Positions 1,240 to 63,679 of a stretch of DNA of 64,000 nucleotides are shown piece after piece. Origin of the DNA: Loripinus fragilis (Eukaryota > Mollusca > Bivalvia > Lucinida > Lucinidae). Positions within the stretch are counted from its first letter, which is position 1. Each line of letters begins with the position of its first letter. Where the stretch lies: the NCBI GenBank assembly GCA_964019695.1, contig OZ026518.1:82207950-82271949 (forward strand). Direction: 5' to 3'. Both the position numbers and the translations under genes were made by a program. The notes beneath the pieces are model-generated. The model saw only the letters and a program-made list of their open reading frames with translations, was not told the DNA's origin and ran no database searches.

Positions 1240-1883
1240 AAGGCCCTTCCTTTTGGAAGAAAAAGGAATGACTTTTTCTTACGATACACGATGCAGAAAA
1301 GAAGGAATAATACAGAATAAATATATAATACAACATATATACACGTGCGACTTCAATGGCGGACTACCTGGAAAGATAGTCTGCCCCCACATTGTCTTGT
1401 CCTCGGATTGCCACAATTATAGACCTGTACTGTTGAAGCTTTAATGCTCAACACATAAGTATGGGGTTGTACCCCTTTAACTTTTCCACATATGGGGTTG
1501 TACCTCTTTAACTTTCTATGAAGTTTTATGTCTTATGACATTTAATATAAATAAGGCTTAATAGCCCACCTTTTGCAAAGATCCACAGGTTATGCATTCC
1601 TATGCCAAGTATACCTATTAATAACTTCCTCCACAATACAATCTTTGCTCAAAATAAATTAACGTGACTTTTCACGTTGAAGCCAACCTCTTTTGCAAAA
1701 TTTATATTTTATCGTGACTTGCTCACGTCAACCGTCTACCGTCATACGTCATGACTTAAATATAATTCTGTGACTCCTCACGTCAAAAGTACACCTATGT
1801 GACTACTACTATGCTATCATAGCTAAAATATAGGTCAACAATCCGAGACAATTGGGTCATTACACTGTCGCACACCTTTAACA
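1240..1883 (-). other. Region between the coding frame and the 3' LTR
   Basis: No open frame of note. It contains the purine tract next to the LTR (1244-1254) and short repeated phrases such as the paired 'tatggggttgtacc' at about 1460 and 1490. An autonomous element would have more pol sequence in or near this position, so this may be what remains after an internal deletion. Confidence 0.5.
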
Positions 1884-4163
1884 CTAACACTGACTACTGC
1901 TTTCAGTCGTCATATTGCGCCAATAATATGGTATTGGGCAACGTCTACCACTACCATATGAACGTCGTCGTTCTGTCTGGCTTTCAGTCCGTCTTGTACG
2001 GCTAACTACTGCCTCCTTAGAGGATATGTTTCTCTGGGTTACACTACAACAATGAGTCATTGCGACCTTTATATTGTGAGTTGTCCTTTGACAAATGGCA
2101 CAAGATCTACAAAATTGAGTTACCTCCCTACAAACACCGGGCCAATAAAATTCATCTAAGACCTTAGATATAGTTTCCTTTCTGCCTCTATGATTTACCA
2201 CCTTTCGTGATTCATGGGCTAAATTCATAACGCTATGCGTTAAACTAGAAGGAACTACTAACTGTAGTGAAACATTTGCATTTTTCTTAAAATGTCTATA
2301 AATTAAACCATTCCTACGAATGAATTTAGTTTCACCACTAGAGAAACTGCGACTCTTAGTCACACTACCAGACTCTACCCTTCGTCTAATCTCTATTAAC
2401 TTAACATCTGACGCTTGCATCATACATAATTCTTGCCTGTGCTGCCTAATAAACTTATCTGCCACCTTGACCTTTCTATTCTTTCTACTTTTCTTTGACC
2501 TCTTCTTATTGACTACCCCTGATGAAAAATGGGTCATATCGGGAAATTTAGACCCCTCAATATTTCCAATGACTAAGTCATGTGCAGGATCATCAATGCA
2601 CAATGCATCCGTACTACCTCTAAAAAATGGACAATCAATATTAATACGGGCCATAGGACATCTCTGATTATAATTGTTAATAAGAGTCACACCAGACTGC
2701 TTATTCAACATTTGACCATCAGAAACTAAGCTCCTCCTAACAACTACCCCCGTACAACCTGTGTCTCTCAAGACCCTAACCTCTTTACCATTTACGTTAC
2801 CAACCGCTGTCGGCAACCTTGACCTTGGGAAATGACAAGTGCCCTTGCTATCCTTATGGGGTAAACCCTCTGGTGAAGAATGAGGATAACTAAACTTAGC
2901 CTGACCTTTTCCTACATCCGAACTTTCTATTTTACAAAAATTGACCTGATGGTCGGTCCTGTAATTAATATTATAATTGTCAAGTTGGTCAACTCGACCA
3001 AAATTTCTATCCTGATCCCTATACGAGTTATTTCCCCTATACTGGGAATCAAATTCGGCACTATAAGCTACCCTCTTGTTATCGGGGTTTTTCCAACATT
3101 TATGCGTGGGGTGAGGCTTGCCACAAATCTTACACTTAACTACTGGCCTTTGATCTTGCTTGGGCTCTACCTTAGGCTGGACTTGATCTACACTCTTACT
3201 TTTATGCTGCCCCTTAGTAATACACAAGGGAACACCCCCTTTGGCATCGGCGAACAAATCCGCCTCATGGGCTAACTCATCAATGGCTTTAAATGGCTTG
3301 GGCTTAAGATACAAATAGAGCTCATGACTGCAACAGTCAAGGAACTGGTCTCGGGCCAAAAAATCACAAACTGCCTCGTAGGTCTTTTCAACCTTAGCCA
3401 AACCCAACCATTTATCAAGGTAGCTCGCTAGCCTACCGCTAAATTGTCTGAAAGTTTCGGCTTTCTCGGGCCTACAATCCCTTAATTTCTTACGAAAAGA
3501 TCGTTCGGTGAGGTCGAAATTGGTAAGCAGAGCCTCCTTAATCTGACCATAATCCGACTGGTCATCTCTGGAAAGCCTAACGAAGACTTCCAAAGCGCGT
3601 CCCTTTAATAAGGCACTTAAGTATGATGCCCACATGGACGGGTCCCATTTATTTGACAAAGCATAACTTTCGAACCTAGTTAAATAGCTATCCATCTTAT
3701 CCGTATGTTCGTCAAAGTATGGAAGCTTGGGACTCCTAGGATTCGAACTTTTCTCTTTGGGCCCCCAGGGATGTGAAGTGGTCTCGGCCTCGATTTTTTT
3801 TAGTTCTACTTCGGCCTCAATTTTTTTTAGCGCAATTTCCTTTTCCATTTCCATTTCTTTATCCTTGCGCGCGGCCTCAATTTTCAATTTTTCCGCCTCA
3901 ATCCTTAACTTTTCTAATTCCCGATCCTTATCTTTTTGCTCCCTATCTTTCTCTTTTTGCTCCCTTTCTTTCTCTTTTTGCTCCCTTTCTTTATCTTTTT
4001 CCTCCCTTTCTTTATCTTTTTGCTCGGCCTCCCTTTTCTCTTTTTCATATTCCCTTTGGGCCAACCTTTCCTCCCTTTCTAAATCTTGTTGCCTCTTAAG
4101 ATAATCCCTTAGTTCTTGCCCTTCATATCCTAATTCCCGTGCTAATGAAATATGTTTATCCAT
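1884..4163 (-). CDS. Gag-protease-integrase finger polyprotein of LTR element
   Basis: A 759-residue frame starting at the ATG at 4163. Residues 1-130 are extremely charged (Lys/Glu/Arg/Asp repeats), probably a coiled coil. Residues about 150-310 resemble a Gypsy Gag capsid. A short zinc knuckle with pattern C-x2-C-x3-H-x4-C lies near residues 340-352. A retropepsin-type motif DTGCTG lies near residue 465. An integrase-type HHCC finger (H-x7-H, then FCRSCAIC and CQRT) lies near residues 650-695. The frame then runs into unrelated-looking sequence and stops. Reverse transcriptase, RNase H and the integrase catalytic core are missing. The order protease then integrase finger is either the result of a deletion or the unusual Gmr1-type order, in which integrase precedes reverse transcriptase. 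The frame has no internal stop, which fits a young copy. Confidence 0.88.
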   Translation of the reverse strand: MDKHISLARELGYEGQELRDYLKRQQDLEREERLAQREYEKEKREAEQKDKEREEKDKEREQKEKEREQKEKDREQKDKDRELEKLRIEAEKLKIEAARKDKEMEMEKEIALKKIEAEVELKKIEAETTSHPWGPKEKSSNPRSPKLPYFDEHTDKMDSYLTRFESYALSNKWDPSMWASYLSALLKGRALEVFVRLSRDDQSDYGQIKEALLTNFDLTERSFRKKLRDCRPEKAETFRQFSGRLASYLDKWLGLAKVEKTYEAVCDFLARDQFLDCCSHELYLYLKPKPFKAIDELAHEADLFADAKGGVPLCITKGQHKSKSVDQVQPKVEPKQDQRPVVKCKICGKPHPTHKCWKNPDNKRVAYSAEFDSQYRGNNSYRDQDRNFGRVDQLDNYNINYRTDHQVNFCKIESSDVGKGQAKFSYPHSSPEGLPHKDSKGTCHFPRSRLPTAVGNVNGKEVRVLRDTGCTGVVVRRSLVSDGQMLNKQSGVTLINNYNQRCPMARINIDCPFFRGSTDALCIDDPAHDLVIGNIEGSKFPDMTHFSSGVVNKKRSKKSRKNRKVKVADKFIRQHRQELCMMQASDVKLIEIRRRVESGSVTKSRSFSSGETKFIRRNGLIYRHFKKNANVSLQLVVPSSLTHSVMNLAHESRKVVNHRGRKETISKVLDEFYWPGVCREVTQFCRSCAICQRTTHNIKVAMTHCCSVTQRNISSKEAVVSRTRRTESQTERRRSYGSGRRCPIPYYWRNMTTESSSQC

Positions 4164-6249
4164 TTTAGCCTATTGTTGGGAATGGTATGAGTCAACTATA
4201 CTGTTGAAAATAAATAAGGGTTCGCTTTGTCCCTTTTAAATAGGTATGGGCTAACCAACGTTCGCGCTGGTAAACTAATAATTTTACTAGGGATTTAAAG
4301 ATGTTACATATGAGTAACGTAAAGTACAACGTATAAGAGATCACCACGGAAAGGTGCCTAGGATATATATCAACCTTAAATAGGCCTTCACTAAACGCAT
4401 TTGACTAAAAAACGTCATTCATTTTCTCGCATTTACGTCAAGAAATGTATACCTACGCGATATTAATATAAACGCGTTACAGTCAAGTCAACAGTCACTT
4501 GTCATAGCAAGACATAATAATTGACTAAAATAATCTTTCTATGGACTTCTTCTAATAATAAAATCAGTTGAGTGGCGTCACACACTATGACGTCACTGAG
4601 GTGATTTAAATTATTAGTACCCCCAAACGATATGAAATTTTCCACATCAGTATCCTTAATTAATAGGAATACAGGGCATAAGCCAATACACAATGATATG
4701 GGTAAAGTAAAGGTGGACAAGTCTAATAATAAAACTCTGACAAATTTTCCTTGGGTTTTATACCCTAATGGCAATCCACAGAACAAGAAAGTATGGGTCC
4801 CCTCAGAATGTTATGTGATGACTTATTTACATGTGTCGCACTTCATCACAGGGGAACGCATTCAATCAGTACTGTGTGTTGACACTCACCACCTTTCTTG
4901 TAAAGAAAACTACTAGTGTGCGCCCGTAGCAACGTCACAGCAGAGAAATTTGCCAATAAAACCTCAAAAATCCCACTTCTGACACCATTGTTACGACATA
5001 ATGCCGGTCAGGAAGGAAGAGGGGAAATCTTATTGGAAAATTCCTTTTTGCGATGACGATGCTACCAGGGAAAAATAATGCACACAACTAGCAAAAACTT
5101 TTCAGTACTTTATGTACTAAGAAAACATCAACAACACATTAATATACAATGACACCACCTACGCTGTTATTTCTGGCTAATTGACCATCCTATACTAGAG
5201 CAAGTTGCCACTCCAAGATCGTTTCAATTAGAACCAATCTTGGACTGTCCTGTTCTAGATGCACGTCAACTAGTCAGAAATAAGAGACGTAAAGAATATG
5301 ATTAACATATAACTTAAGAAAAAAAAACAATTGGATCCTTTAATATTTAAGTTCTCGTATTGACGAGAAATCTCGAGATTATACGCGTCTCGCGAACACT
5401 ATGTCTTCTAAGCTGCACGTGTGTCTATTTCAGACCATCGGCGCTGAGGTGATCGAACCTGTACTTTGGTCGTCACTGGATTAACGTATTCGTGTTATCT
5501 GTTATGCGTACTGCTCGTACGTTACTCAAGACGTCAGTATTTATTTATGTCCTCCTGATCGTATCCCACGTTGGGACGTCAGATTTTTCATATAACCATT
5601 CGAGCCGGTTGGCTTCCCATTTTGTTGCACTACGTTGTAACGATTGGGGCTTTGATCCACGCTGGTCGTGGCCTAAGGGGGACAACTATTATGTGCCCTC
5701 AGGTACTTATCAATGGCTCACCAACTTTCAGCCTCCAACGTAGGAGGGGACACAAGAGATGATTCTGCAAAAAACAATCTATATTTAGAATCTCAGAATC
5801 ACTCTTTTGCGTCGATAATGGGGTTGTTCGTTCGAAGTTCACAAAAATAGAAATAATTTCAGTGGTCTTACTCTTTTAAATTACAGCCTAACCCTATAAG
5901 CGCGCGATTAGCCCACACCCGTGGGTGTATGGCTAACGGCTCTCATGCGGTTAGGATGGATCGGCTCTTCTAAATACCCACACTTAAACTTATATAATAG
6001 AGAAGTATTTTTTTAGTGACTGGCCTATGTCAGCGCTAAACAATACCTCTTATGCCAAACGAACAAACCCATACGTAACAAACTCTTCTATACACTGTCG
6101 TAACGTCACCCTGGTTGAGACGCTATCGCAGCCGAAACATCAAGATCCTGTGGCCCTTTTTCCCTTCAAGGTCACGTTATCTAGATAGTTTCGAGGTTTA
6201 CACATACTGATACCAATTCTCTTAAAATTCCAGGAAAAAGGTTGAACAG
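4164..6249 (-). other. Long 5' leader of the LTR element
   Basis: About 2.1 kb between the 5' LTR and the Gag start. Only short frames on both strands (up to about 94 codons) are present and none is recognisable. One 83-codon plus-strand frame at 5492-5743 starts with a hydrophobic stretch but resembles nothing I know and runs antisense to the element. The leader is long for a Gypsy element. Confidence 0.55.
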
Positions 6250-7526
6250 TGTGGTGCCGACGTAACGTTTGGACGTTTACGTCGGACATCACCCTGCCCA
6301 CGCACTAATTTCGTACATGTATAACGTATCAGTTGTAAACAACTAATTATGACCTCTCGGCAAAATATATAAATCAATATTGAGAGATTACATTCTGCTG
6401 TTTTATGTGTGTAAAACCGTACAATGCTTTCTTACATTTATTTTGGTGTAACACAAAATGCTTTACATTTACTTTGGTGTAACGAAAATATCTTACATTT
6501 ACTTTGGTGTAACAAAAATATCTTACATTTACTTTGGTGTAACATTACACCTACCTAATCTCTAAACATACATGTCAGCTATCACCTTATTTATGTAAGT
6601 GTGTTGTAGTGTATGCACCTAACCCTTATTCTTATATGCGTCAGATATAACTCGAGGTGACACAGACAGGTCGCTACAGAAAGTCGATTATCACTAGCAG
6701 TTAAATCGTCTTTCCAACAACGCCGTACAAATCACAACAATTTAAAATCTAGCTGCTAAAATTGTTTTTCACCTATCGGTCCCTGGTAAATCTTTCAGCA
6801 TGCCATTATAGTTTTAGGTGCGGCCCGACATGGCCTGTGACTACATTTGTCCGAAATAACCCGACGAGTCCATTCGGACAGCTTTTACTATAGCCGCAAG
6901 AATGTTCCCAGCAGATTATTAGGCAATACGCATGTGCGTAACTTCATACGCAAGTGCGTAACAATCGCTATTTTCACCAAAAAAACGGGACGTTATTGAT
7001 AACACCCGAAAGAACACATACACGGAATGCTGGCCGATTCAACAGACGACAAAATAGAAAACGAGTGACTTATTATTTCAATACAATGTGACATGCTAGA
7101 GACATCGCGATTCAATGCAATTACACGGATCGCCATCGCCCTGTCATGTACAATATCAATACAGTAACAATATATATAGCTTCACGTACCTTTTATAATA
7201 ATAAATAGCATCTCTATATCGAACCTTTCATCGGTATGTTTAAAATGTCCCCTAACAAGAATGGGAAATTCCATCCTTTATATATTGAAAAACGCACAAG
7301 ATTTCCGAGATATTCAAGAAGAATAAGGAAAACGTGCAAGCGTTGATAAATATAGATACAATGAATTCCATCTCAGACAAACCGACCTTTTATTGGGACT
7401 ATCAAAAGAAAGAGTACCGTATCATGGTTCGAATAGGTGCCCAGGTGCATACCTAAACCACTGCGTATTTGTGCGTATACGCAACCATAGCTGATTCTGT
7501 TATTCCAGCCATTCTGTATCGTAACA
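6250..7526 (-). repeat. 5' LTR
   Basis: The right-hand copy, about 1277 bp. Identity to the left LTR is verifiable from 6288. The boundary at 6250 is inferred from a TG there and the CA at 7525-7526. A 9-bp-arm hairpin (6257-6265 with 6277-6285) lies at the LTR edge next to the internal region. The promoter of the element should lie here, but no TATA box can be assigned with certainty. Confidence 0.88.
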
Positions 7527-23500: not shown

Positions 23501-26500
23501 CAGGATTGCAAAATATTGAGTTTATGTAATAAAACAACATCGGCGTAGACCTTAGAAGCAGTGGTGGTCATCTAAGAATACTGGTTATAGATTTTTAAAG
23601 CATGTAGATTAGGGCACCCCCATTTTGAAATTAAATTTATAGATTTCTTCAAATCTCCTTAAAACTGCATTTATTGCCTCAAAATATTTTTGATAATCAT
23701 CTATATATCGATTGGAAGCATATCTCGTAAAAAATTGTGTGCTTACTTATTCACTTTTGTCCTACCGCTGAAGTGGTTTGAATTGCATATTTTTTACATA
23801 AACAAATAAATTTTAAATTGAATGTGTTTAAACACTGCATACAGTTAGACAGATGTTTGGGACATAATTTAAGAAAATTTATTTTATTTTCTATGGCAAA
23901 ACTAGAAAAGGTAGCTGAAAAGTAAAAATATGAAACCACGATAATTTGATACTTAGTAGTTTAGTTCATACCGGCGGGTGCGTAGTTAAATACCAGGACA
24001 ACTTAAGGGCAGTTTAACACATAAATGAAATTTAACAAAGTTTAAAGGATGCTTATCTTCCATATTTACAGCAGCTTTGAAGCAGATGGTCATTGTAGGG
24101 TCCAAGGGGATTTTTATCTACTGAAAACATTAAATTTCATTTAACAGTGGTAAAATAAGTATAAAAACTCATATAACTATATCATATCACCATGGAAAAC
24201 CTGTCTGTCCCTGTCTGAGATGCAGAAATTAAACCGCATAGTACTTGTAAAGACAAAAATGTCCCTAAGAAGATAATTTTGGTGCAGAAATGACTGTCCA
24301 TACTTATAAATGCATTTGATAGTGTATCATTGTATTATCGAACAGTCAAACGGCTTCTCATACCCATTCTCCAGATAAGAGTGCGTAATGGAAAATTAGT
24401 TTTGTTATTTCTCAACCAAAACATATGTTTTGAGTACTTAAATGGACCTATTAAATGAGACGGTTCTTTTTGAAGACCGAAAGCACGCTCTTTAACTTAT
24501 TGATAAGGGAAACATCACAATTTCTATGCTATGAAAGATTGCTTAACATGACCTATGTAGTGGGGTGACAATCAAGGCTAAAAAGTAGACGGGGTGGTAA
24601 CAAAAGTATAACAAAGGTTGTTATATACCAAAATGTTGGGCTTGGTCTGAAGTTTACCAGACAACCGGCATAAATTTTCTAAAGTGAGGGCGAGCCGAGA
24701 AATTCAAGATGGCGTCTAAGATGGCTGCCGAAAATGGCAAATTTCAATATATACACAAAATCAGTAATATGATCATATATTTTGATGTTTTAAACTTTTC
24801 AAATGGATGACCAAATGCTTTTTAACAGAAATAGTTTCTATGAGTGGTCATTTAAATAGTAAATGACCAATATTATATATGTTATTTGATGATCAAAAGG
24901 TCAAATCGGTGCAGAAAAATAAAAAAATGCATTTAAACATGCCAACATTCAACCACATGATCTTTTTTCAACTGCTTTGTCATTATTTACCGTAGCTGCA
25001 TATCAGGGTTATTTCAGACACTTCATATGCAGAAAACACTTCAATCAGACCAACAGAAGTTATACTATTCAATAATAATGTGCCATCTGTATACTGTTCA
25101 TATTTAACAAACAATTCTATGTGATTTGCTAGCCGGTTATTTTATACTTGCCATTGTTTGCAATGTTACTTGCTGACTATTTATTCACTTATATCTTCAG
25201 TTGTAATAAGTGAAAGAACTGTGAAGACATTCTCACAAGTTCTATCAACTTGTGTACAATTGCAAACTTGAGTACAGAGTTGTCAATTTGTTGTACAAAC
25301 ACAGGCATCGCTACAAAGATCTTCACAGAAATGAACAAGATCATTTAGCAATTCAGGTGGAGCTGATGGTTGGCTAACCAATGTAGGCATATAATATCCT
25401 GTATCAGTGTCAATCTCATAACCATAATGATAATCTGTTAAAAGGAGGTATCTCTACAATACTTGTGAGTGACTCCCTCCAAATCATTATTTGGTAACTG
25501 CAACGTAGCACATGCAGAAATTGAAACTGTCGTCAGTTGGAGGCAATTTTCTAGGTTTAACCTTTTTGTTTTCAAGCACTCTGTTCACTCGTAGTTTGTT
25601 AAGTGACGAACATCCATTGCAACCATACAATAAACCAACAAAAGAGACACAGGCCAGCCATGCTGTCAGCGAAAGTGAATGTTCTTTACCAATGTCAGCC
25701 AGCCCTTGCAATTCTGCTGAATAATTCATCATTGTTTTGAAAGCCTTTGGCTTTCCTATACCAAATAGTGCACAACAAGTGTCACAGCCTGTGAGAGCAA
25801 ACACACTGGAGAAGGTTTGTTTGTCCTTCATTCAGCTTGCACACTACATTGTGTACAGGAATAAATCTGGTTAGATCTGCATGGGTATGTTTCCTTCCGG
25901 TTTTAAAGAATATTTCGCGTACACTCATGTGACTAAACTGATATACAAGTAAAACTAACCCATTAGTATCTTGGCTTGCCACACTAACACTTTTTGCACT
26001 TTATCTGGCCTGGTAAGCAACATGTAGCAAAATGGGTGTGTCTGCTTCTTCATGATTTGATCGAAGCTGCTCAATAATATGTACAACATCATTTGATACG
26101 TTCAGTGCCTTCTCATCAATGCCTCCACTCACATACACATGCTGGTTCCTGTTGATTCATTTGTTACAATGTTCAGCTAGATATAAGGTATAGAACTTTG
26201 TGAGTTTTGATTTGAAGCTGCCATTTACGAGAGAACTTTTTTCCAATCAGGAATATTTATTTTCCCCTTTACATGTACTGATGTAAGTCTTGACATATCA
26301 GGCTATGTACCAGGTATCTGTCAAACACAACATGTACAGCTGGAATGCCCTCACTAACACACAAAAGATATTTCCAGAATAATGAGGCCATGTCATCGTA
26401 TGTTGGCTTAGCAGCTGAAGTTGGTACTGGTATCATTTGTATGATAGCCATGCCATCAAATACAATACTGTCTACATCTTTAATAGTTTTCAACACTGTT

Positions 26501-29500
26501 CATGCTTGATAAGGCTTTCAAATATGTTCTAAAAAGGGTATCCCTTGGAAGCAAAGACTGCACCAAAGACCTGAAACTAGAGTTTGCATATTTCCTGGGC
26601 CAGACTAGCTAGTTTCTGTCATTTAGGCTTCATCAGTGACCCTCTAATAGTTTCAAAGTTCCACATAGAAACCCATGATCCCAAAGGACTAGCAAATAAA
26701 ATCTACACTATAGTGAAGGGCATGGGGACGTTCTACCGCCGCCACACAATCCCAGTCACCAGCAGTAGTGAAGTCAAATATATGTTCTAAATTTGTCTAA
26801 GAAATCAGACTTCTTTGTAGTTACCATTTTACCATTGTCACAAAATAAACTCAGAGGCACGGTTGCATTTTCAAATGCCGAAACACGTTCTAGAGGAACC
26901 TTTTTGTATGCATTCATTGCTAACAGTCTCAAGTACATCTCTTCGCCATTCATTGGAATGTCTTTAGTTTACACCGCACTGCGATTTTGGATTTGACATT
27001 GTCTTCACCTTGTTTTTGGTAACAGGATCATAAAGCCCTTTACAGGTTCATCCCTACCGCTGTGTGTTACAAAACGTTCCTCAACAAACTGCTCTAATAA
27101 CGCTCTGCTTTAATGACAGTGTTGTAAACTGCTTTCCACTTCCTCCCACACTTATATTCCAGTTGCAAAGTGAGTGAGTCTGATGGGTGGACTATTTGTC
27201 AAAAAGGGGTCCACGAACGTTTCATCAAACATGTCAAACATTTTCTAAGCATATTCATTGTAGGTTTCTTGTACGACTCTCTGTCAGTGTGGTGCCTAAT
27301 GGATACTTGTCGAGTCAAGCTCTCTCTGAAATATACTGAATTCTTTGCTGTGACTGGACGAGACAAAAACCATCGTGTTAGTGCATTGTCTTGATTAGTA
27401 AGACCAATGATTCCACCAGATGATTTAAGGGCCTTTTTTCCGTAGCCTCCAGGACATATTCCATCCATAGTGAGTTGAATGTACCTGGTGTCAGTTTTGC
27501 AACAAAATGTCCATTGTTAAAACTCTCTTGCGCTTCAGCGAGGCGGTTCATCTTTAGGAAGAGGTAAGGCATGTGCCTTGAATAGATTGTTCTGTAGGAT
27601 GCAAAAAAGAAAGGAAGCAACTGTGACTTGGCAAATTGATGAGCATCCCATATGGCATGTCTAGCTGATGAAATAAATAATTTCATGGGTGCATATTTCA
27701 AACGGTTGCTTTCTCTGGTATGGCCAGATTTAAGGTTTATTCCAAGAACAGAAATGACAGGTCTCGTTTGCTCCATGAGCATAACAATTGGTGATGTATT
27801 GCTAAAACAGTGTCTCTCAAAACACATTTAAGTACAGTAGCTGACGACAACCCAGAACTACATGTTATAGTTGATGCCTCCCTATCAGAGCCAAACGATG
27901 AACTAAACATCCTTCACCAAGTAGCGAAAATATTAAGGGAAAGAGTGCTTAAAACAAAAAAGAGACACAGAAGGCTTTTCTTGATCTAATGCTTCTTCGA
28001 TTTGTAATATGGCTTTCGAGTAATAAGAAACTAATTGAAGGAGCTGATATTCATGACTCAGATCTTGATTCAAAGACATTAGCTATTTCAAGTGATATTA
28101 CTACACTAGTAGCTTCAAACTTTACACCGAAGCACTTATGTCTAACAGTGTACTACACCTTTTTTTTGGAGCAAAAAACTAATCGAAGACTTAAATACCC
28201 TATGTTTTACAATGTCATATTCTGAAGTGAGACATTTTTTACCTTCTGCACATTGTGATTATTGAGTGAACTTTTTAAGTCTAACGAAGCTGGTGTTTCT
28301 TCTGAGAGGAAGCATTTGAGACAGAAACAACATCTTTCTGTGTTAAGGCTCATACCACGCTTTTTGATAGGCTCTATAGAGAGGTCTGTTCCTGGGTCTT
28401 CCATGGTGTAATTAAGGCTATGCAATTACGAGAAACTCATCAGGAGTAGATAAATACAGCAACCCAGTGTCTAAAACATGAATAAGTAATAATTTATGAC
28501 CAGATAAATTTGCAGGGTATAAATTTACCTGGACACCGGTCTTACCACATTATTGAACTGGCCTTAGAATACCATGTTTTTTCCAAAAATAATATATTGT
28601 TAGAATGCTGAACTGTATACTGATGAAATACAACAGGCAATAATTCATTCATGCTACTGCCATCTTTAATACCAAACGTGTATATTGATTCATTCATGAT
28701 ACTTCTTGACCTTATAAGAACTCTGTTTACTAACCCAATTCTTGAATACAAGCAAAGAATAATACTCATATACTTACTTTATCTTCCTGATCACATTGAT
28801 TTCAATAACTCTGTACAGACATTGGAGATTGTAGAACTAGTATGCTTATATTTTTAGAGCTTTGTTTTAGTGGAACCGGTGCTCTATTAGAGGTTTACCT
28901 ATCCTACTATATTTACTATAACAAACATAAAATACAAAACATTACTGAAATAAAAAGACATACATGTAAAAAGATATCAAAATTAGACATTCATACATTC
29001 TGTTACATCCAATTCAAAGATTTTATGTTGTATTTATCAAAACAACAGCGAACTTTATTCCATCGCTTTGTGACCCATATAGTCTGTCTTTTGTCTCCAA
29101 GCTTACCATTTCAAAATAGCAAACGAGAAAGAAAGTTGGCAATACATTATTAACTCATGTTTTGTTAATACATAAAATCTATATGTTAAAACAGTGATGG
29201 AATTCTGCGAAAGAACGTTTCCAAAGTAATGTATATGAATTTTGATGCACTTATTGACCTTTTGACCATATGTTACGCGGCAAGAACGTGTTGTCAACAT
29301 GAAAGTGTTGTTTTCCAAATAATATATGTATCTGCAAGTCTATTTCGTAGTATATAAAAGAATTGATTGCTTTACATGGTATTTATTGGTGGTTATCAGC
29401 TTTTAAGGGGTTTGTTAAATAACGGCGGCCATGTTGGACGCCATATTGGATTTCTCAGTTCGCCCTAATTTTTCCAAATTTATGCCGGTGGTACGATAAA

Positions 29501-32500
29501 CTAGACACATTTGGCAACATTTTGGTATATAACAATCTTTGTTATACTTTTGTTACTACCTCACTCAAAAATAGGCCTCCTATATAATCAAAGTCACCCC
29601 ACTAATGTGGCATACAAAAATGCATTATTCCGCGAAATGCAATTCCGGTCGCATTGCTATACATTGGTTTCATATCAAGCACTATTTAGACTATCAGTAT
29701 ATAAAATTCCAGCCGTATACCTTTCGGGTGCAAAAAATGTGTGTTTTTGCACAATACGCGACTTTGGTTCCCCGACTAATTAACTTTGGTTGGATTGCAA
29801 TGTGCAAGGAAGTCTAAAATCGAGCTTAAAAGACAGTTCATAATTAAGGTATTTTTTCATTGCTAAAATCACATGTGATTAAACTTACATTTTAATTTCA
29901 TTAGCATAACAAGTTTAGGACAAGCACATAAATTGGTGCATTTACGAACATTTCTGTAAGCTTACCCTCGTTTTCGTAGAAACCACCAAGCTCTGTCCAA
30001 ACTACCACCGGTGCAACCATCTTGTCCTCTTACATTACATGAAAGTAAATGCTGAGGTGAAAGGTCCTCATCAAATGCCCCTCGTGACTCGATAGCAAGA
30101 CGATCAGCAGAAAGTGCTGTAAGAATATATTCATATATAATTATACCCATTTGGTTTGCTTGTGAATATGCTTTACGTACCAGTCAATATTTTACAGTCA
30201 TGTCGGTACGTTTTCTGAGCTGAACCAGTATTAAACGGAGGGTAAAGTGTTTTGCTCAAGGACACAACTTAGTGCCTCCGGTGGACTCCTTGATTACAAG
30301 TCGAGCACTCTACCACTGAATCTATGCTCATAAAATGCATTTGAAGTTTTATAGAGATATAATAGCCTGCGGCAAACTGAACTTTACTCTGGTGTTAACG
30401 CTCTGGCTTTACAAGCGAAAGGTCCTTGGTTCAATCCTCACTCGAAACCCATTTTTCTTCTTTTTTATACTCATAATTGTCTGGGATAACAAGGATAGGA
30501 TCTAGGTGACTAAAACTCCATTTTGTTCGAAAAAACACCCCGTCGTGAAATGTGAATAAAAATAGAGTTCAAGTGTTTAAACTAATGTAATGTATATATT
30601 AGTGGGTCATGGTGTGTGGTGCACCTAAACATTGGTTGATGGGTTTTATCATGCAATAACATGTATGAAATACTAGAACTTGTGGCGTCAGAAGGATTGA
30701 AACGTCACTAATACAATTTAGCCAGAGTTATACAGTTCTTGCACATGATAATTATGAAGGTAAAGAATGAATTATACAATAAAGTAGACCTATAGCTGCT
30801 AGACTGGGTGTCTTAGCTTAAACTGTTGTAAGTACAATATTACAGTTTTGGTTTGCAAATTCACTCGTGTTCTCATTTTGCAATGTACTAGACTGGCTCC
30901 AGTCCTTAAAACAATTTTTCATCAATATCTCGTATCATATACTTGTAGCTAGTCTTACTCTGATGGCTCTGTTTTCTTAAAACAGAGCCATCAGAGTAAG
31001 ACTAGCTACAAGTATATGATATGACACATCGATGAAAAATTGTTTTAAGGACTGGAGCCAGTCTAGCAGTGTACCTGTGGTGGAAAAGGCCCAAGACGCT
31101 GCACAGTTGCCTTGATCTCTGATCTCAGTGACCAGACCGGGCCACCGTATACGTGCATCGAAAGCGTCAGGCAGTCGGCCGCTGCTCTTTATTTTTATGG
31201 GGTTCATCCGTTCCACTTCAGCATCAGGCTTATGTGTTCCCAGGCGATAGCGCATACCATCCTCCAGTGTCATACCCCAGAACATAGAGTAGTTGGACGC
31301 TCTCCATCTGTAAATAGAGAGGCAGATTCGAACAAGTCTTAGACTTATTCCTGTATCCCTTTCAAATGTATTGTACTGTATATATGGTGTATCTTGATGT
31401 ACTTTTATATTTGAATAAAATATTGTTTACACTAAATAGAGGACTTCACACGAGTGGTCATTAATCCTTTTCAGACCAAGGGGATTTTCCATAAAGCTAA
31501 ATACAGTGCAGTCAGGATGGTCCATTGTATATATTGAGGGCGAAAGTTTATTTTTTCCAAAACATGTTGTTTTGCTTTCTCTGAAGATCATTTTTGTCTT
31601 AGTAAACAGTACAAACCCTGATGAAATGCCGCTTCAAGCGGCATTTCATCTTGGTGTTCACTGTTTACCAAAGTACTCGTTTAGGGGTATCTGGTCCACA
31701 AAGGAGTTAACATGAAATATTTGAAAAGAGCTATAGAGAGTTTTTAAGAGTATCATATTGAATGACCACGGATATTATTCTATTGATCATATGACCATTT
31801 TAACTAAGAGTTTTGAAATTAAAAGATAGCAAGTATTTCAAAAGAAAACGTATGTTATCACAGACGTATTTTTGCTGTCACAGACGGCTTTATCGCGTAC
31901 TCGAAAACGTAAAATTCAACGTATAGTCATGTCACACTTTTTTACATGTTGTTATCCACTGAAAACCATTGGTGTTCATATCGCATACTCGAAGAATCAC
32001 TCTCTAAACCATATTAGTATAGCGTCCTTTTGTTGGACATAGGCAAACAGTGCAAACCCAGATCCGACGCCGCAGTACGCGGCGTCTGATCAGGGTCTCC
32101 ACTGTTTGCTTACAGAAAGTTATATTTGAAGTTTAATAAAATGAAAACTAAATTTACAATCTAACAACCCTTAAAACGGAAATGGACTGGTCCAATTATT
32201 GAGATTGGGAAATTTCATTCGGCTTAAACATGTTAAATGTGTTAAACATGCATGTACAACTACGAAAGTCGTATATATACAGGGACTTTGAATGAATAAT
32301 GCAGCAACTACTGATAAAGTATTCGACCGATGGAGACTGCACGGAAGCATAGGTCATCTTAGATTTCGCTCAATGCGAAAAGTACAAATCTGTAAGGTGT
32401 GCCTGTAGCCTTTGCTCAATGTAAAAAGTACAAATCTGTGCGGTGTGCCTGAACCTTCGCTCAATGCGAAAAGTACAAATCTGTAAGGTGTGCCTGTAGC

Positions 32501-53943: not shown

Positions 53944-56900
53944 ATAAAATTGCGTAGTGAAACTATCAACAAGGTCAACTTCCATAATTGTACCCGATTT
54001 GCTGGCCAATTTATTTTAATGGGGCTTGTCACGAGAAACCCTGGTTTAGTGTTCTCGAATAGGTAAGGTTCAAATTCGCCGACTCATTTACAGAGAAAAT
54101 CTAGCATCCTGACATTTTGTATGCAATACGTTTAGCTATTATTATGCAAATCATGACTGTTCTGATCGGACTACGCAGGCGGGTCTGTGCCTTTGTTTTC
54201 CACAAACACCATAGGCAGCTTTCTCCCGACATGACTAAAATAAAGTGCCAAGTAATTTTAAGGTTTATAAACTGTAATATAACTGAAGATCCGTGCTCTC
54301 TGTCACCATAAAACAATCTAATTTTTTTCTTTCTAAAAATGGCAAATACAAGCATGTTTTGTGATAAGAACATACATTTACCACAATCAAACCAGCTCAG
54401 CGAGACTGTGCGTACGCATAGGCTGAATTGTGTCTTACAAAAAGTACTTAAAATCTCGAATTGGCTCAAATTAAGAATAACGCTGTCTTGTTACGAGAAA
54501 GTTTACATTTAGTAACAATGTACTGAATCACAAAAAACAGGGCTTAACCAAGATTTAATGCACAAAAACAACAACAAAGAATTATCAACAGAAACATTAG
54601 TATGGACAGCAAACACAGCCTCTTGCGATTTTAGATATACATATACATTAACTAGTCAAATCGCCCTATATTCTGGAGTTGGTTTAAACAATATTTATTT
54701 CATAACTCAATACATTTGCATACACAAAGTCACAATATGAAATTGTAGTTTTTAACAGGATTTGAAAACAAGCAATCATGCTTTTTAAAATCATCTCCTG
54801 TAATACAAGTACATTTAATGAATGGAGTTAGTGGCATTACCTTCCCGAGGCCGCTAAGTACTCAGGGTAAACATATTTGTTGCATGGTTATAGCTGCAAA
54901 GAAAAAAAAAGGAAAGAGAGAAGGGAGGAAAGAAAGAAGGAAGAGAAGGAAGGATGGAAATATAAAAGAAAGTACTACAAATTATTAGCTGTAAGAATGG
55001 ACATTGTCGTGTTCTAAGAAAACAGTACTATTTCAATGCACAATGCACAATAGTTCCAGTTTTGTCTACTGAAGGTATTAGTTTCGATATGAAAACCTTT
55101 TAGTTTGATGAATATATCTATGGACAGCTTTAAAAACAAGTTCATTATTTGCATCTGATAGGTTGCTATCACCATATAAAAGAACCATTTCAGATACATC
55201 AGTAAACCTACTGACTGTTTGCAACATTTCCCTACGCATAACATTATACCTTTGACATTCCAACAAGAAATGGAAATTATTTTCTACGGTTCCACAGAAA
55301 CACAAAGCATCGGGGACCAATTTTCTATTGTACAAGTAATATCTTAATGCGCTACAACCAGTTCTTAATCTTGTGTGCAATATCTGACTTATTCTATCTC
55401 CACAATAGTAATATTTTGGGGTTTTAGAAGTATCTTTTTCTAATTTATGCTTAAAGGATAGCAGGGATGGTGTTGATTTAATATCATCTGGGAGTTTGTT
55501 CCACTCTCGAATTGTTGATGGGAGAAATGAGTCATAATATGATCGAGACGAGGCATGGATTTGCCGTAAATTGTTGGCATTGCGTAAACTGTAAGAGGTT
55601 TCGTCCCTGACACGGTGTGGAATCAGTTCCGCCAAATAATCAGGAGCCAGACCATTCTCCATTTTATAGAATAAAAAAAAAATTATGGAGTTTTCTCCTT
55701 TCAGAGAGTTTAAGCCAGCCTAATTCTTGATAAAGCCGATCTAGTGCAACAAGTTTAGTTGCACCTGAAACTATCCGTCCCGCTTCAATTTGTATTTTTT
55801 CTAAGTCATTCATCTGCTGTTGAGTACAATTGTCTCACACAACATCAGCATATTCCAAAATGGGTCTTATAAAATTGAAAGACATACTTTGGAGGGATTT
55901 CTGATCAAGAACAAAACTGAGCGATCTTAATAAATGAACACGAGACATAGCTTTAGCCTGAATATACTCAAGATGGGCCTGCCAATCACACTTATCTGAA
56001 ATATATACAGCTAGGTGTTTGTGAGTTTGAACTTCTTCTATGGGAATGTGGTTGAAATACAGAACTGGATGGTTGATTCTATGTATCTTTCGTGAAATAA
56101 GCATTGCCTCATTTTTATTTGGATTAAAATTAACAAGCCACATGGCAGCCCAGTGAGCTATACGCTCAAGATCAATATTTAAAATTTGAGCATTTGATAC
56201 TAGTATCATCCGCAAACAATCGGATATTATAGTTAATTTCACGAACTATATCATAAATAAAAAGCAAGAATAGCAGAGGCCCCAACATGGGGCCTTGAGG
56301 AACACCTGCCAAGATCTCGACCCAGTCTGAGATACCACCTGGAATAGTAACTCTTTGAAATCGATTTGATAAATAACTTACAAACCATCTGTGCAAATTA
56401 CCGGTGATCCCATAATGATACAATTTAGCAAGAAGACCACGATGCCAGACCCTGTCGAATGCTTTGCTCATACAAAATACCACACAGACTTCTTTGCCTT
56501 CGTCCAGTGCCTGACAAAATGTATTGTTCATGTCAGTTAGCTGATTAACCGTTGAATCCCACGGCATAAACCCTGATTGAAAAGGTGTTATTATCTGACT
56601 AGCTAGTATAAAATTGTGAACATGTTTATGTATTGCTTTTTCGAACGCCTTGGAGTTGATACATGTAAATACACAAGATGTATTTTTGCCCACTTAAATA
56701 ACTTAGCTTCATCGCAGATCAGCATCAAATGATCACAAATGCGATAAAACAAATAAAATGGCTCTCAGTAATCAATGCACATACTGATAAAGCTGATTAA
56801 AACACAAACAGAGCCATGGTGAACTGGACCAAAAGACAAACATTTAATAGGCAACAAACCCACCGATGGAAGTTTTCGAACATGGTCGTCATTGAGACCT

Positions 56901-60677: not shown

Positions 60678-61794
60678 TTTAAAATTAATTATGTTGCCCA
60701 GTATTCAAGTGAGAAAACGTTTAATATTGCACTCTCTTCCACAACAAGCCTGTAACTTCCAGTATGTCTGAGACTTTATCGGGCAAAAAAAATCTGCTTT
60801 CAAGCAAATTTTATAATTTATTAAGTCAGTCACTTTTGAATACCAAAGAATTCGACGTGTTTACGGAAATATCGAATTTTTGTTAAATATGCTTAGTTAT
60901 CCATAATTAATGTCACACAAATTCCGTAAGCTTAATGCTATTGGAATACCAACTAAGTAAATCCCATAGCTATTATAGCAAGATTGATGACACGAGTGTG
61001 CGAACAAATGCCTATAATGCTCAAGTTTTTTTCTAAGGACCAATTTCTTTTCTATTTCATTAAAGCTGTTTGACCAGTTTTAAAGTTCTAAAATCCAATA
61101 TTTGTATCGTTCTCCCATCCACTTTACTTTGTTTATCCTTGCGAAAAGAACATTATAGCCATTATATACTTGATAATGGCAAAGTAATCCTAACTATTCA
61201 CAATGACCTTTAAAGGAGCGTTGATAAATTTTGCTCATCTAAACAGTTCAAATTTGTTCAAATGTTTGATAGCATTTAATCTAGTCCTCACTGTATGACA
61301 AGCGTAAAATTATTTGAAGATGGGGTTTATTTAAACATTACTACCCACTGAGCGAGCGTCTAGGTTTTTGCCTATCGTAATTCTTAAAACGTCCTTTTAC
61401 ATTCACATATAGGCCAACTCAAAAATGAATTATGTGATGTACCCATTATTTTTGTATATTGCTATAAACAAACTAATAAGTAGGTAGCCTTGGGGATGCA
61501 ATTTATTTGTTAACATTTTTTAATAACTTGACTTAAGCAATATGACCAGCGAATGCGAAAAATGTATGTAGTAAATGTCATATGCTAAATATGCAAGTGC
61601 AGCTGTTTAGCTCTTTGCATAGTAGTGCACGTCGTCTAATGACACTACTCGCAGACAGCTTAGACCCCAATCAGGCCCGATAAAACGATCCAAACTATTT
61701 GACACTCTGATGATATTCCTGAAAGATATTTTCGAAAAGGTTGATTTTGAAAAAAAAATCAATAGACGACAAAAATGCATGAAAACTTACGCAG
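60678..61794 (-). other. Upstream region of the TINAG-like gene
   Basis: The promoter and 5' UTR should be here, but I cannot assign a TATA box or start site with confidence. An untranslated first exon further upstream is possible. No repeat was recognised. Confidence 0.4.
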
Positions 61795-62831
61795 CATACA
61801 GGTCGGTAAAGTTAGCACTAATTTTGCTGCAGCAAAAAACGGTAAAGTTGGCAGCAATTTTTCTGCAGTAAAAAACGGTCAAGTTAGCAGCAGCAGTAAA
61901 AAACGGTAAAGTTAGCAGCAATTTTTCTGCAGCAAAAAACGGTCAAGTTAGCAGCAGTTTTGCCGCAGCAAAAAATGGTAAAGTTAGCAGCAAATTTATG
62001 GCAGAGAAAAACGGTCAAGTTAGCACAAAATTTCTAGCACAAAAAATTTTGCTAGCAAAAAAATTTGCTGCTGGCACAAAAATTCCTGCTAGCACAAAAT
62101 TTGCTGCTAGCAATAAAATTGCTGCCGGCAAATTCTGCTAGCACAAAAATTTCTGCTAGCACAAAAATTTTTGCTAGCACAAAATTTGCTGCCAGCAAAA
62201 AATTTTCTGCTAGCACAAAAATTTCTGCCAGCACAAAACTTCCTGCTAGCACAAAAAATTTTGCTAGCACAAAATTTCCTGCTAGCACAATAAATTTTGC
62301 TAGCAAAAAATTTGCTGCCAGCAGAAAAAATTCTGCTAGCACAAAAATTTCTGCTAGCAAAAAATTTGCTGCCAGCAAAAAAATTTCTGCTAGCACAAAA
62401 ATTTCTGCTAGCACAAAATTTGCTGCTGGCAAAAAACATTCTGCTAGCACAAAAATTTCTGCTAGCACAAAATTTGCTGTCAGCAAAAAATTTTCTGCTA
62501 GCACAAAAATTTCTGCTAGCACAAAATTTCCTGCTAGCACAAAAAATTTTGCTAGCAAAAAATTTGCTGCCAGCAGAAAAAATTCTGCTAGCACAAAAAT
62601 TTCTGCTAGCAAAAAATTTTCTGCTAGCACAAAAATTTCTGCTAGCACAAAATTTGCTGCTGGCAAAAAAATTTCTGCTAGCACAAAAATTTCTGCTAGC
62701 ACAGAATTTCTGCAGACACAAAAATTTCTGCTAGCACAAAATTTTCTGCTAGCACAAAATTTGCTCCTGGCACAAAAATTTGCTGCTGGCAAAAAAATTC
62801 CTGCAGGCACAAAATTTGCTGCAGGCACAAA
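61795..62831 (+). repeat. 18-bp minisatellite (about 1 kb) with 36-bp higher-order start
   Basis: From about 61803 to 62030 the unit is about 36 bp (ggtaaagttagcagcaattt then ttctgcagcaaaaaac). From about 62030 it becomes the 18-bp unit tctgctagcacaaaaatt in variants (gctagc/gccagc/gctggc, caca/caaa). Nearly all units are 18 bp and lack stop codons, so long frames stay open on both strands (258, 285, 204 and 145 codons). These are not genes: the products would be endless SASTKI-like or LLAQKF-like repeats. Confidence 0.95.
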
Positions 62832-63277: not shown

Positions 63278-63440
63278 TTGATTTGATTCATTACGTCCCA
63301 TCAACAATCTTTCAGTTATATAGGGACGGGTCTTCCTGGGATGAACCAGTACTAAGCTAGGATAAATGCGTCTTGCTTAAGGGCACAATTCAATGTCACC
63401 GTTGGGCTCGAACCCGCGGCCACTCGGTCTCGAGTCAAGC
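63278..63440 (-). mobile_element. SINE family A copy, head replaced by minisatellite
   Basis: Matches 58860-59000 from 'caacaatctttcagttatat' to 'tcggtctcgagtcaagcac'. The next bases should continue 'tctaccgctgagcc' but are instead the first minisatellite unit (aaaaatttctgctagc). Confidence 0.8.
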
Positions 63441-63679
63441 ACAAAAATTTCTGCTAGCAAAAAAATTGCTGCTGGCACAAAATTTGCTGCTGGCACAAAA
63501 ATTTCTGCTAGCAAAAAAAATGCAGCCAGCACAAAATTTGCTGCTGGCACAAAAATTCCTGCTAGCACAAAAGTTGCTGCCAGCACAAAATTTGCTGCTG
63601 GCACAAAAATTCCTGCCAGCACAAAATTTGCTGCCAGCACTAAAATTTCTGCAGGCACAAAATTTGCTGCAGGCACAAA
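63437..63679 (+). repeat. 18-bp minisatellite, second array
   Basis: About 13 units of the same tctgctagcacaaaaatt family, ending in the same 'aatttgctgcaggcacaaa' as the first array just before a MITE family 1 copy. Confidence 0.93.

Follow-up and report, generated by a model that had tools for sequence, protein, structure and literature searches.

Is the repeat-bounded unit of about 5 kb in a 64,000-nucleotide stretch of the Loripinus fragilis genome (contig OZ026518.1, positions 82,207,950 to 82,271,949; hereafter the window) a new kind of transposon moved by a nuclease-like protein, or a broken copy of a kind already described? An earlier note had favoured the former, reporting a 5.04-kb unit with inverted repeats, perfect 10-bp termini, TA flanks and no recognisable DDE transposase. 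Our results indicate that the unit is very probably a dead, non-autonomous terminal-inverted-repeat DNA transposon copy of the Academ kind (AcademX type), reference Academ elements having been compared by description only. That kind is already described; the family is new, and we make no claim that it is absent from print: a literature search, with Repbase and Dfam outside it, returned no title describing the present family, though it may be in print.

Boundaries of the element

The whole copy measures 5,047 bp (24558..29604, gene on the minus strand), as delimited by terminal repeats, flanking 3-bp repeats and the recurrence of these ends in other copies across the genome. Its termini read 5'-TAGTGGGGTGAC...GTCACCCCACTA-3', where TAGTGGGGTGAC is the perfect 12-bp terminus. 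On the 3' side of the gene, the terminal inverted repeat (24558..24730, plus strand) is made up of this terminus and an arm at 24593-24730, and that on the 5' side (29423..29604, minus strand) of the terminus and an arm at 29423-29560; compared within the window, the arms are 80% identical over 138 nt. Exact matches of the 10-mer GTGGGGTGAC in the window are confined to the two element ends, and when up to one mismatch was allowed the terminal 10-mer matched four times (two of them exactly) against 1.42 expected by chance. Directly outside lie matching ATG triplets (24555..24557 and 29605..29607), which follow the 3-bp rule confirmed below. The dinucleotide TA stands outside GTGGG in all 11 copies with both termini; it belongs to the element, as the outermost two bases of the inverted repeats, and is not a target duplication. 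The repeats and termini first reported are real, with each end 2 bp beyond the position given. It was this two-base shift, together with the defective state of the copy, that made the element look new.

Insertion duplicates three base pairs of the target

Copies elsewhere were sought by searching the host assembly (2.0 Gb, 685 contigs) with the DNA of the whole unit, which gave 132 matching pieces; because the best 40 of 1,986 candidates were scored, all copy numbers are lower bounds. Copies were assembled by stitching overlapping stretches of matched loci. With TAG as the element start, matching 3-bp flanks were found in 10 of the 11 copies with both termini: ATG in the window and TAA, TTA, AAA, TAT, TAG, AAC (a dimer on contig C18, counted once), GAA, AGA and TTA (the C19 copy) in the others, the exception being a copy on C3 (AAA/TTA). 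The C19 triplets, TTA on both sides, were read by eye, and there is one mismatch in the left terminus of that copy. The count leaves out the C11 copy, whose left terminus is damaged, and the one-end copies on C9, C4:82.97M, C10 and C17.

Empty sites were obtained for the copy on C14, which sits within an open frame taken by eye as that of a retroelement. When its flanks were joined with one TAG, five other loci matched over 361-362 nt at 95-99% identity (among 26 matches), and the four that were cut out aligned without gaps, with a single TAG at the junction, as paralogous empty sites. Searched as an exact pattern, the empty site had 0 genome matches; within that pattern the empty sites carry one or more bases unlike the flank. 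A TA duplication, first accepted from the flanks, was dropped once the triplets beside TAG were seen to match, and the single TAG of the C14 empty sites excludes it. The comparison of empty sites that had been proposed for confirming a TA duplication thus shows that insertion duplicates 3 bp of the target. In contrast to Tc1/mariner elements, which duplicate TA, the C14 insertion duplicated TAG, and the TA belongs to the terminal repeat.

Full-length and defective copies in the genome

At least four full-length copies of about 7.1 kb are present, at C14:42206836-42213981, at C76:61152-68298 and, as a pair, on C18. Both exon frames are open in the C14 copy and the first C18 copy and interrupted in the C76 copy and the second C18 copy. 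In a 3'-side stretch of 1.3 kb the four diverge from one another by 0.1-1.2%, against 3.6-10.6% among the other eight copies compared; judged by these sequence distances, the full-length copies are young. The C18 pair (C18:75585021-75599290) consists of two copies lying head to tail, 99.7% identical, with AAC at both outer sides. Where they meet, a palindromic double terminus would be expected, but some 16 bp of it are missing from the single junction that they share. This dimer may have arisen through an intermediate that was multimeric or circular or by duplication at a later time, or it may be an artefact of joining in the assembly. The C19 copy (C19:10876477-10877143) has been reduced by deletion to about 670 bp, of which some 630 bp come from the side of the gene's 5' end and the remaining 54 bp or so from the opposite end of the element, and is a derivative resembling miniature inverted-repeat transposable elements.

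A pattern search of the genome with the terminal 12-mer GTGGGGTGACTT alone found 69 places compared to 128 for the backward control. Eight of these loci were cut out and had no inverted repeat, the only matches to the repeat being two pieces of 21-23 nt; the remaining 61 places include real ends, such as C3:113448739 and those of the window copy itself.

Intact copies encode a predicted transposase joined to a predicted nuclease

The coding sequence of the C14 copy runs from nt 1261 to 6507 and its two exons give a spliced product of 1,601 aa, for which the reading frames, together with a homologue, point to a 441-nt GT-AG intron. The product is 49% identical over nearly its full length to Mercenaria LOC123541526 (P0008, 1,621 aa). 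Two Cys/His modules, identified by eye, stand at its N-terminus and a Cys cluster at its C-terminus.

The N-terminal half has a conserved D, D, GxxH and E, with D505, D680 and E925 as the residues, and its predicted DDE domain is RNase-H-like with an all-helical insertion. Foldseek found no match to this model under 1e-3; in a second structural comparison (VIA) the best neighbours were Hermes and RAG1, with weak fold scores. Ask1 matched a helical stretch in a sequence-profile comparison (E 0.0015), which was taken as chance. The residue pattern and the predicted fold suggest that this half is a cryptic DDE transposase. For the C-terminal half, a FEN1/EXO1/XPG-type fold is predicted, with conserved acidic residues and a GxGKxxA-type turn; what we take to be the FEN1 active-site positions are conserved, and a profile match to EXO1 is short (E 0.0044). 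This half is accordingly described here as a predicted FEN1/EXO1-like nuclease. The Academ nuclease is of the XPG type.

The surmise that the gene belongs to a mobile element is thus borne out by the intact copies found alongside it in this genome, which encode one protein with predicted transposase and nuclease halves. The nuclease-like C-terminal part and its cysteine cluster were also read correctly, and the absence of a recognisable DDE transposase holds for copies of the window type but not for the open copies, which encode a DDE-like domain.

Rearranged gene remnant in the window copy

As first described, the window copy holds one large gene remnant, a single broken gene on the minus strand that is interrupted in every frame. 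Alignment to the C14 copy resolves it into segments. The start of exon 1 (28245..28404, minus strand; residues 1-54, frame MEDPGTD...) retains the first CxxC module and is followed by an inverted internal segment, found by BLASTN against the C14 copy (27691..28244, plus strand; residues 271-468 of the intact protein), and by a remnant of residues 842-1148 (26789..27692, minus strand) with the transposase-glutamate motif near 27447-27449. An inserted repeat unit of about 250 bp (26536..26788), recognised by genome DNA search and alignment and bordered by about 15 bp of repeated element sequence, separates this from the remnant of the FEN1/EXO1-like nuclease half (25181..26535, minus strand; residues 1144-1601), assigned from frames, alignment, structure and profile, which still has an Asp codon at 25781-25783 and, at its end, the Cys cluster. 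The inserted unit forms tandem arrays elsewhere in the genome with about 256-bp spacing (e.g., C3:40980103-40981401) and is also found inside the C5:14.7M copy, at a position other than that in the window copy.

In terms of the C14 copy, the window copy consists of nt 1-1422, then 2071-2662 inverted, then 4227-7146. Measured against the intact protein it lacks residues 55-270 and 468-842, and no transposase is visible because the second gap removes both transposase aspartates. When seven gene pieces of the window copy were compared with Pfam, six had no match and one had a match below the cut-off (Leucyl-specific, E 0.0024), which was taken as chance. Ten other copies share the window-type structure: counting the window, all 11 copies have the join at 4227 and 9 of 11 that at 2071, while the end at 1417-1422 is present in 7 of the 9 window-type copies whose 5' part was covered. 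Since these breakpoints are shared with other old copies, we infer from the alignments that the window copy is a defective deletion and inversion derivative that multiplied, and not merely a decayed intact copy.

Homologues and related families

Three homologue searches, each scoring about 8,000 best candidates, recovered at least 47 proteins in the first, whose five organism-named members come from the bivalves Mercenaria, Ruditapes, Dreissena and Mya, relatives that by themselves point to a bivalve host; at least 52 in the second (alignment query), many common to the first; and at least 44 including the query in the third (distant-member query), with one annotated in the ant Temnothorax and one in a Candidatus Thiodiazotropha metagenome-assembled genome (MAG). 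The family proteins P0058 and P0086 are listed in Candidatus Thiodiazotropha MAGs and are probably clam host DNA binned with the symbiont. Pfam families matching the 44 homologues at E up to 0.01 were four, each in one or two proteins, and the Pfam lists of 5 and of 44 homologues contained no helicase family. Weak matches to DUF6589 in 2 of the 44 homologues and 3 of 6 further ones (all three below the cut-off) were not used as Academ evidence. Homologue P0083 carries a precomputed Pfam domain, PF22445.

We searched the host genome with the distant homologue P0042 and obtained at least 36 matches (best 31 of 1,090 candidates), with open frames of up to 1,629 codons. Flanks were fetched for 10 of the 36, matches with few or no stops being preferred and taken in pairs where possible; at least three stop-free matches lie outside this sample (C4:104073747, C13:7926552 and C53:350585). 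Inverted repeats were found at nine of the ten loci and equal 3-bp flanks at eight: TAT, AAA and CTT in family X (terminus TAGGCTAC), TTA and CAA in family Y (terminus TAGAC), TAG at the C16 locus (terminus TAGTGCGGGGTCC) and TAA and TTT in family Z (terminus TGGTAGAGC). The family Y triplets come from the copy-to-copy boundary, a scripted reading (C2b GAC/CAA) that took other short-terminus occurrences being unused, and those of family Z were read by eye from boundary sequences. At C10:25057681 inverted repeats are present with flanks TTA/TAA. The relative at C2:112792106-112795582, an open frame of 1,312 codons, had no inverted repeats in the stretches fetched nearby and is a candidate degraded or host-adopted copy.

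Comparison with known systems and rival explanations

In published accounts, AcademX elements have 3- or 4-bp duplications and AcademH elements 9- or 10-bp ones, these lengths being tied to an encoded nuclease and helicase, respectively (PMC10045372), and Academ shows bivalve-specific amplification, with 100 curated consensus elements of mean length 5,565 bp (PMC10294476). Each AcademX feature tested was found in the present element, namely a DDD/E transposase (by pattern and fold), a nuclease and a duplication of 3 or 4 bp. By these accounts (PMC10045372, PMC10294476) the two are alike in joining DDE transposase and nuclease in one element, in the 3-bp duplication, in length and in abundance in bivalves; here both activities are placed in one protein of 1.6 kaa, and the likeness is one of description. 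AcademH shares the superfamily name and differs in its helicase and 9-10-bp duplication (PMC10045372), whereas the present element duplicates 3 bp and carries a FEN-type nuclease, the homologue Pfam lists being free of helicases. Compared to FEN1/EXO1/XPG nucleases, with which sequence similarity is short, the nuclease here is fused behind a transposase and borne by a transposon. The closest predicted DDE folds, at weak scores, are those of hAT (Hermes) and RAG1/Transib; hAT duplications are 8 bp and those of Transib 5 bp, while here a 3-bp duplication goes with a FEN-type nuclease, a domain that to our knowledge is found in no hAT or RAG1/Transib transposase.

This nearness to Hermes and RAG1 leaves room for a separate superfamily, in which a hAT/RAG-like DDE core became fused to a FEN1-like nuclease and the AcademX likeness arose by convergence. 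No Pfam model covers the family, as the four sporadic matches above illustrate, its likeness to AcademX rests on description without a reference Academ sequence, and termini vary among families (TAG... versus TGG...). However, transposase, nuclease and 3-bp duplication are the combination given in the AcademX description (PMC10045372), and the published account of Academ has long elements amplified in bivalves (PMC10294476), the organism-named relatives of our first search being bivalve; we consider a separate superfamily unlikely. The undescribed element originally proposed, with a TA duplication and a PIN/XPG-like protein as mobilising enzyme in place of a DDE transposase, draws on the TA found beside GTGGG in every two-ended copy, on a nuclease fold that is real and on a window copy in which no DDE domain is visible. 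The empty sites, which place TA within the repeat, and the conserved DDE-like domain of the open copies make it very improbable. Least credible of all, to the point that we give it almost no weight, is a host gene family duplicated together with inverted repeats. The homologues are indeed annotated as ordinary 'uncharacterized protein' genes, but the precise termini, 3-bp duplications and empty sites, the young near-identical copies on several contigs and the defective derivatives with common breakpoints all argue for a transposon.

A possible mechanism and its implications

In a working model for such an element, the N-terminal Cys/His modules would bind the element ends, the DDE site would cut the ends and join them with a stagger of 3 bp, and the FEN-like site would trim or cut a flap or the non-transferred strand during excision or gap repair. 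The window type, with its deletions, its inversion and the loss of both transposase aspartates, may have been spread in trans by intact elements, after which it would have decayed and taken the repeat-unit insertion. A bolder version, possible but rather doubtful, makes the FEN1-like half a required catalyst: the DDE site would cut and join one strand and the 5'-nuclease would release the other, in a pathway of two enzymes in one protein, possibly through the circular or multimeric intermediates at which the C18 dimer may hint, with a hAT/RAG-like core of unsettled evolutionary place.

These findings identify anonymous invertebrate proteins of 1.5-1.6 kaa, with almost nothing in Pfam, as transposon-encoded and propose a two-domain chemistry for them. 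For testing a FEN1-like nuclease in transposition, the genome offers copies that are young and nearly identical, whose ends and 3-bp duplication are defined and for which there are empty sites. The findings also carry a warning for annotation, in that such 'uncharacterized protein' genes and their copies in symbiont MAGs are probably mobile elements.

Neighbouring features in the window

On the minus strand, at 30977-31426 and 60267-60704, lie a papain-family protease exon (Pfam Peptidase_C1) and a Cys-rich open frame without a Pfam match. By eye, the two may belong to the same TINAG-like gene, in which case the transposon would lie in or just downstream of that gene. An open frame of 761 codons at 1884-4169 (minus strand) has an integrase zinc-binding domain (PF17921), as expected of a gene like those of long-terminal-repeat retrotransposons. 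A piece of a broken reverse-transcriptase gene (RVT_1) occupies 56172-56693 (minus strand), and two frames beside it (55078-56245) had no Pfam match. Finally, arrays of 18-bp repeats are found at 62034-62831 and 63438-63679, with several frames open.
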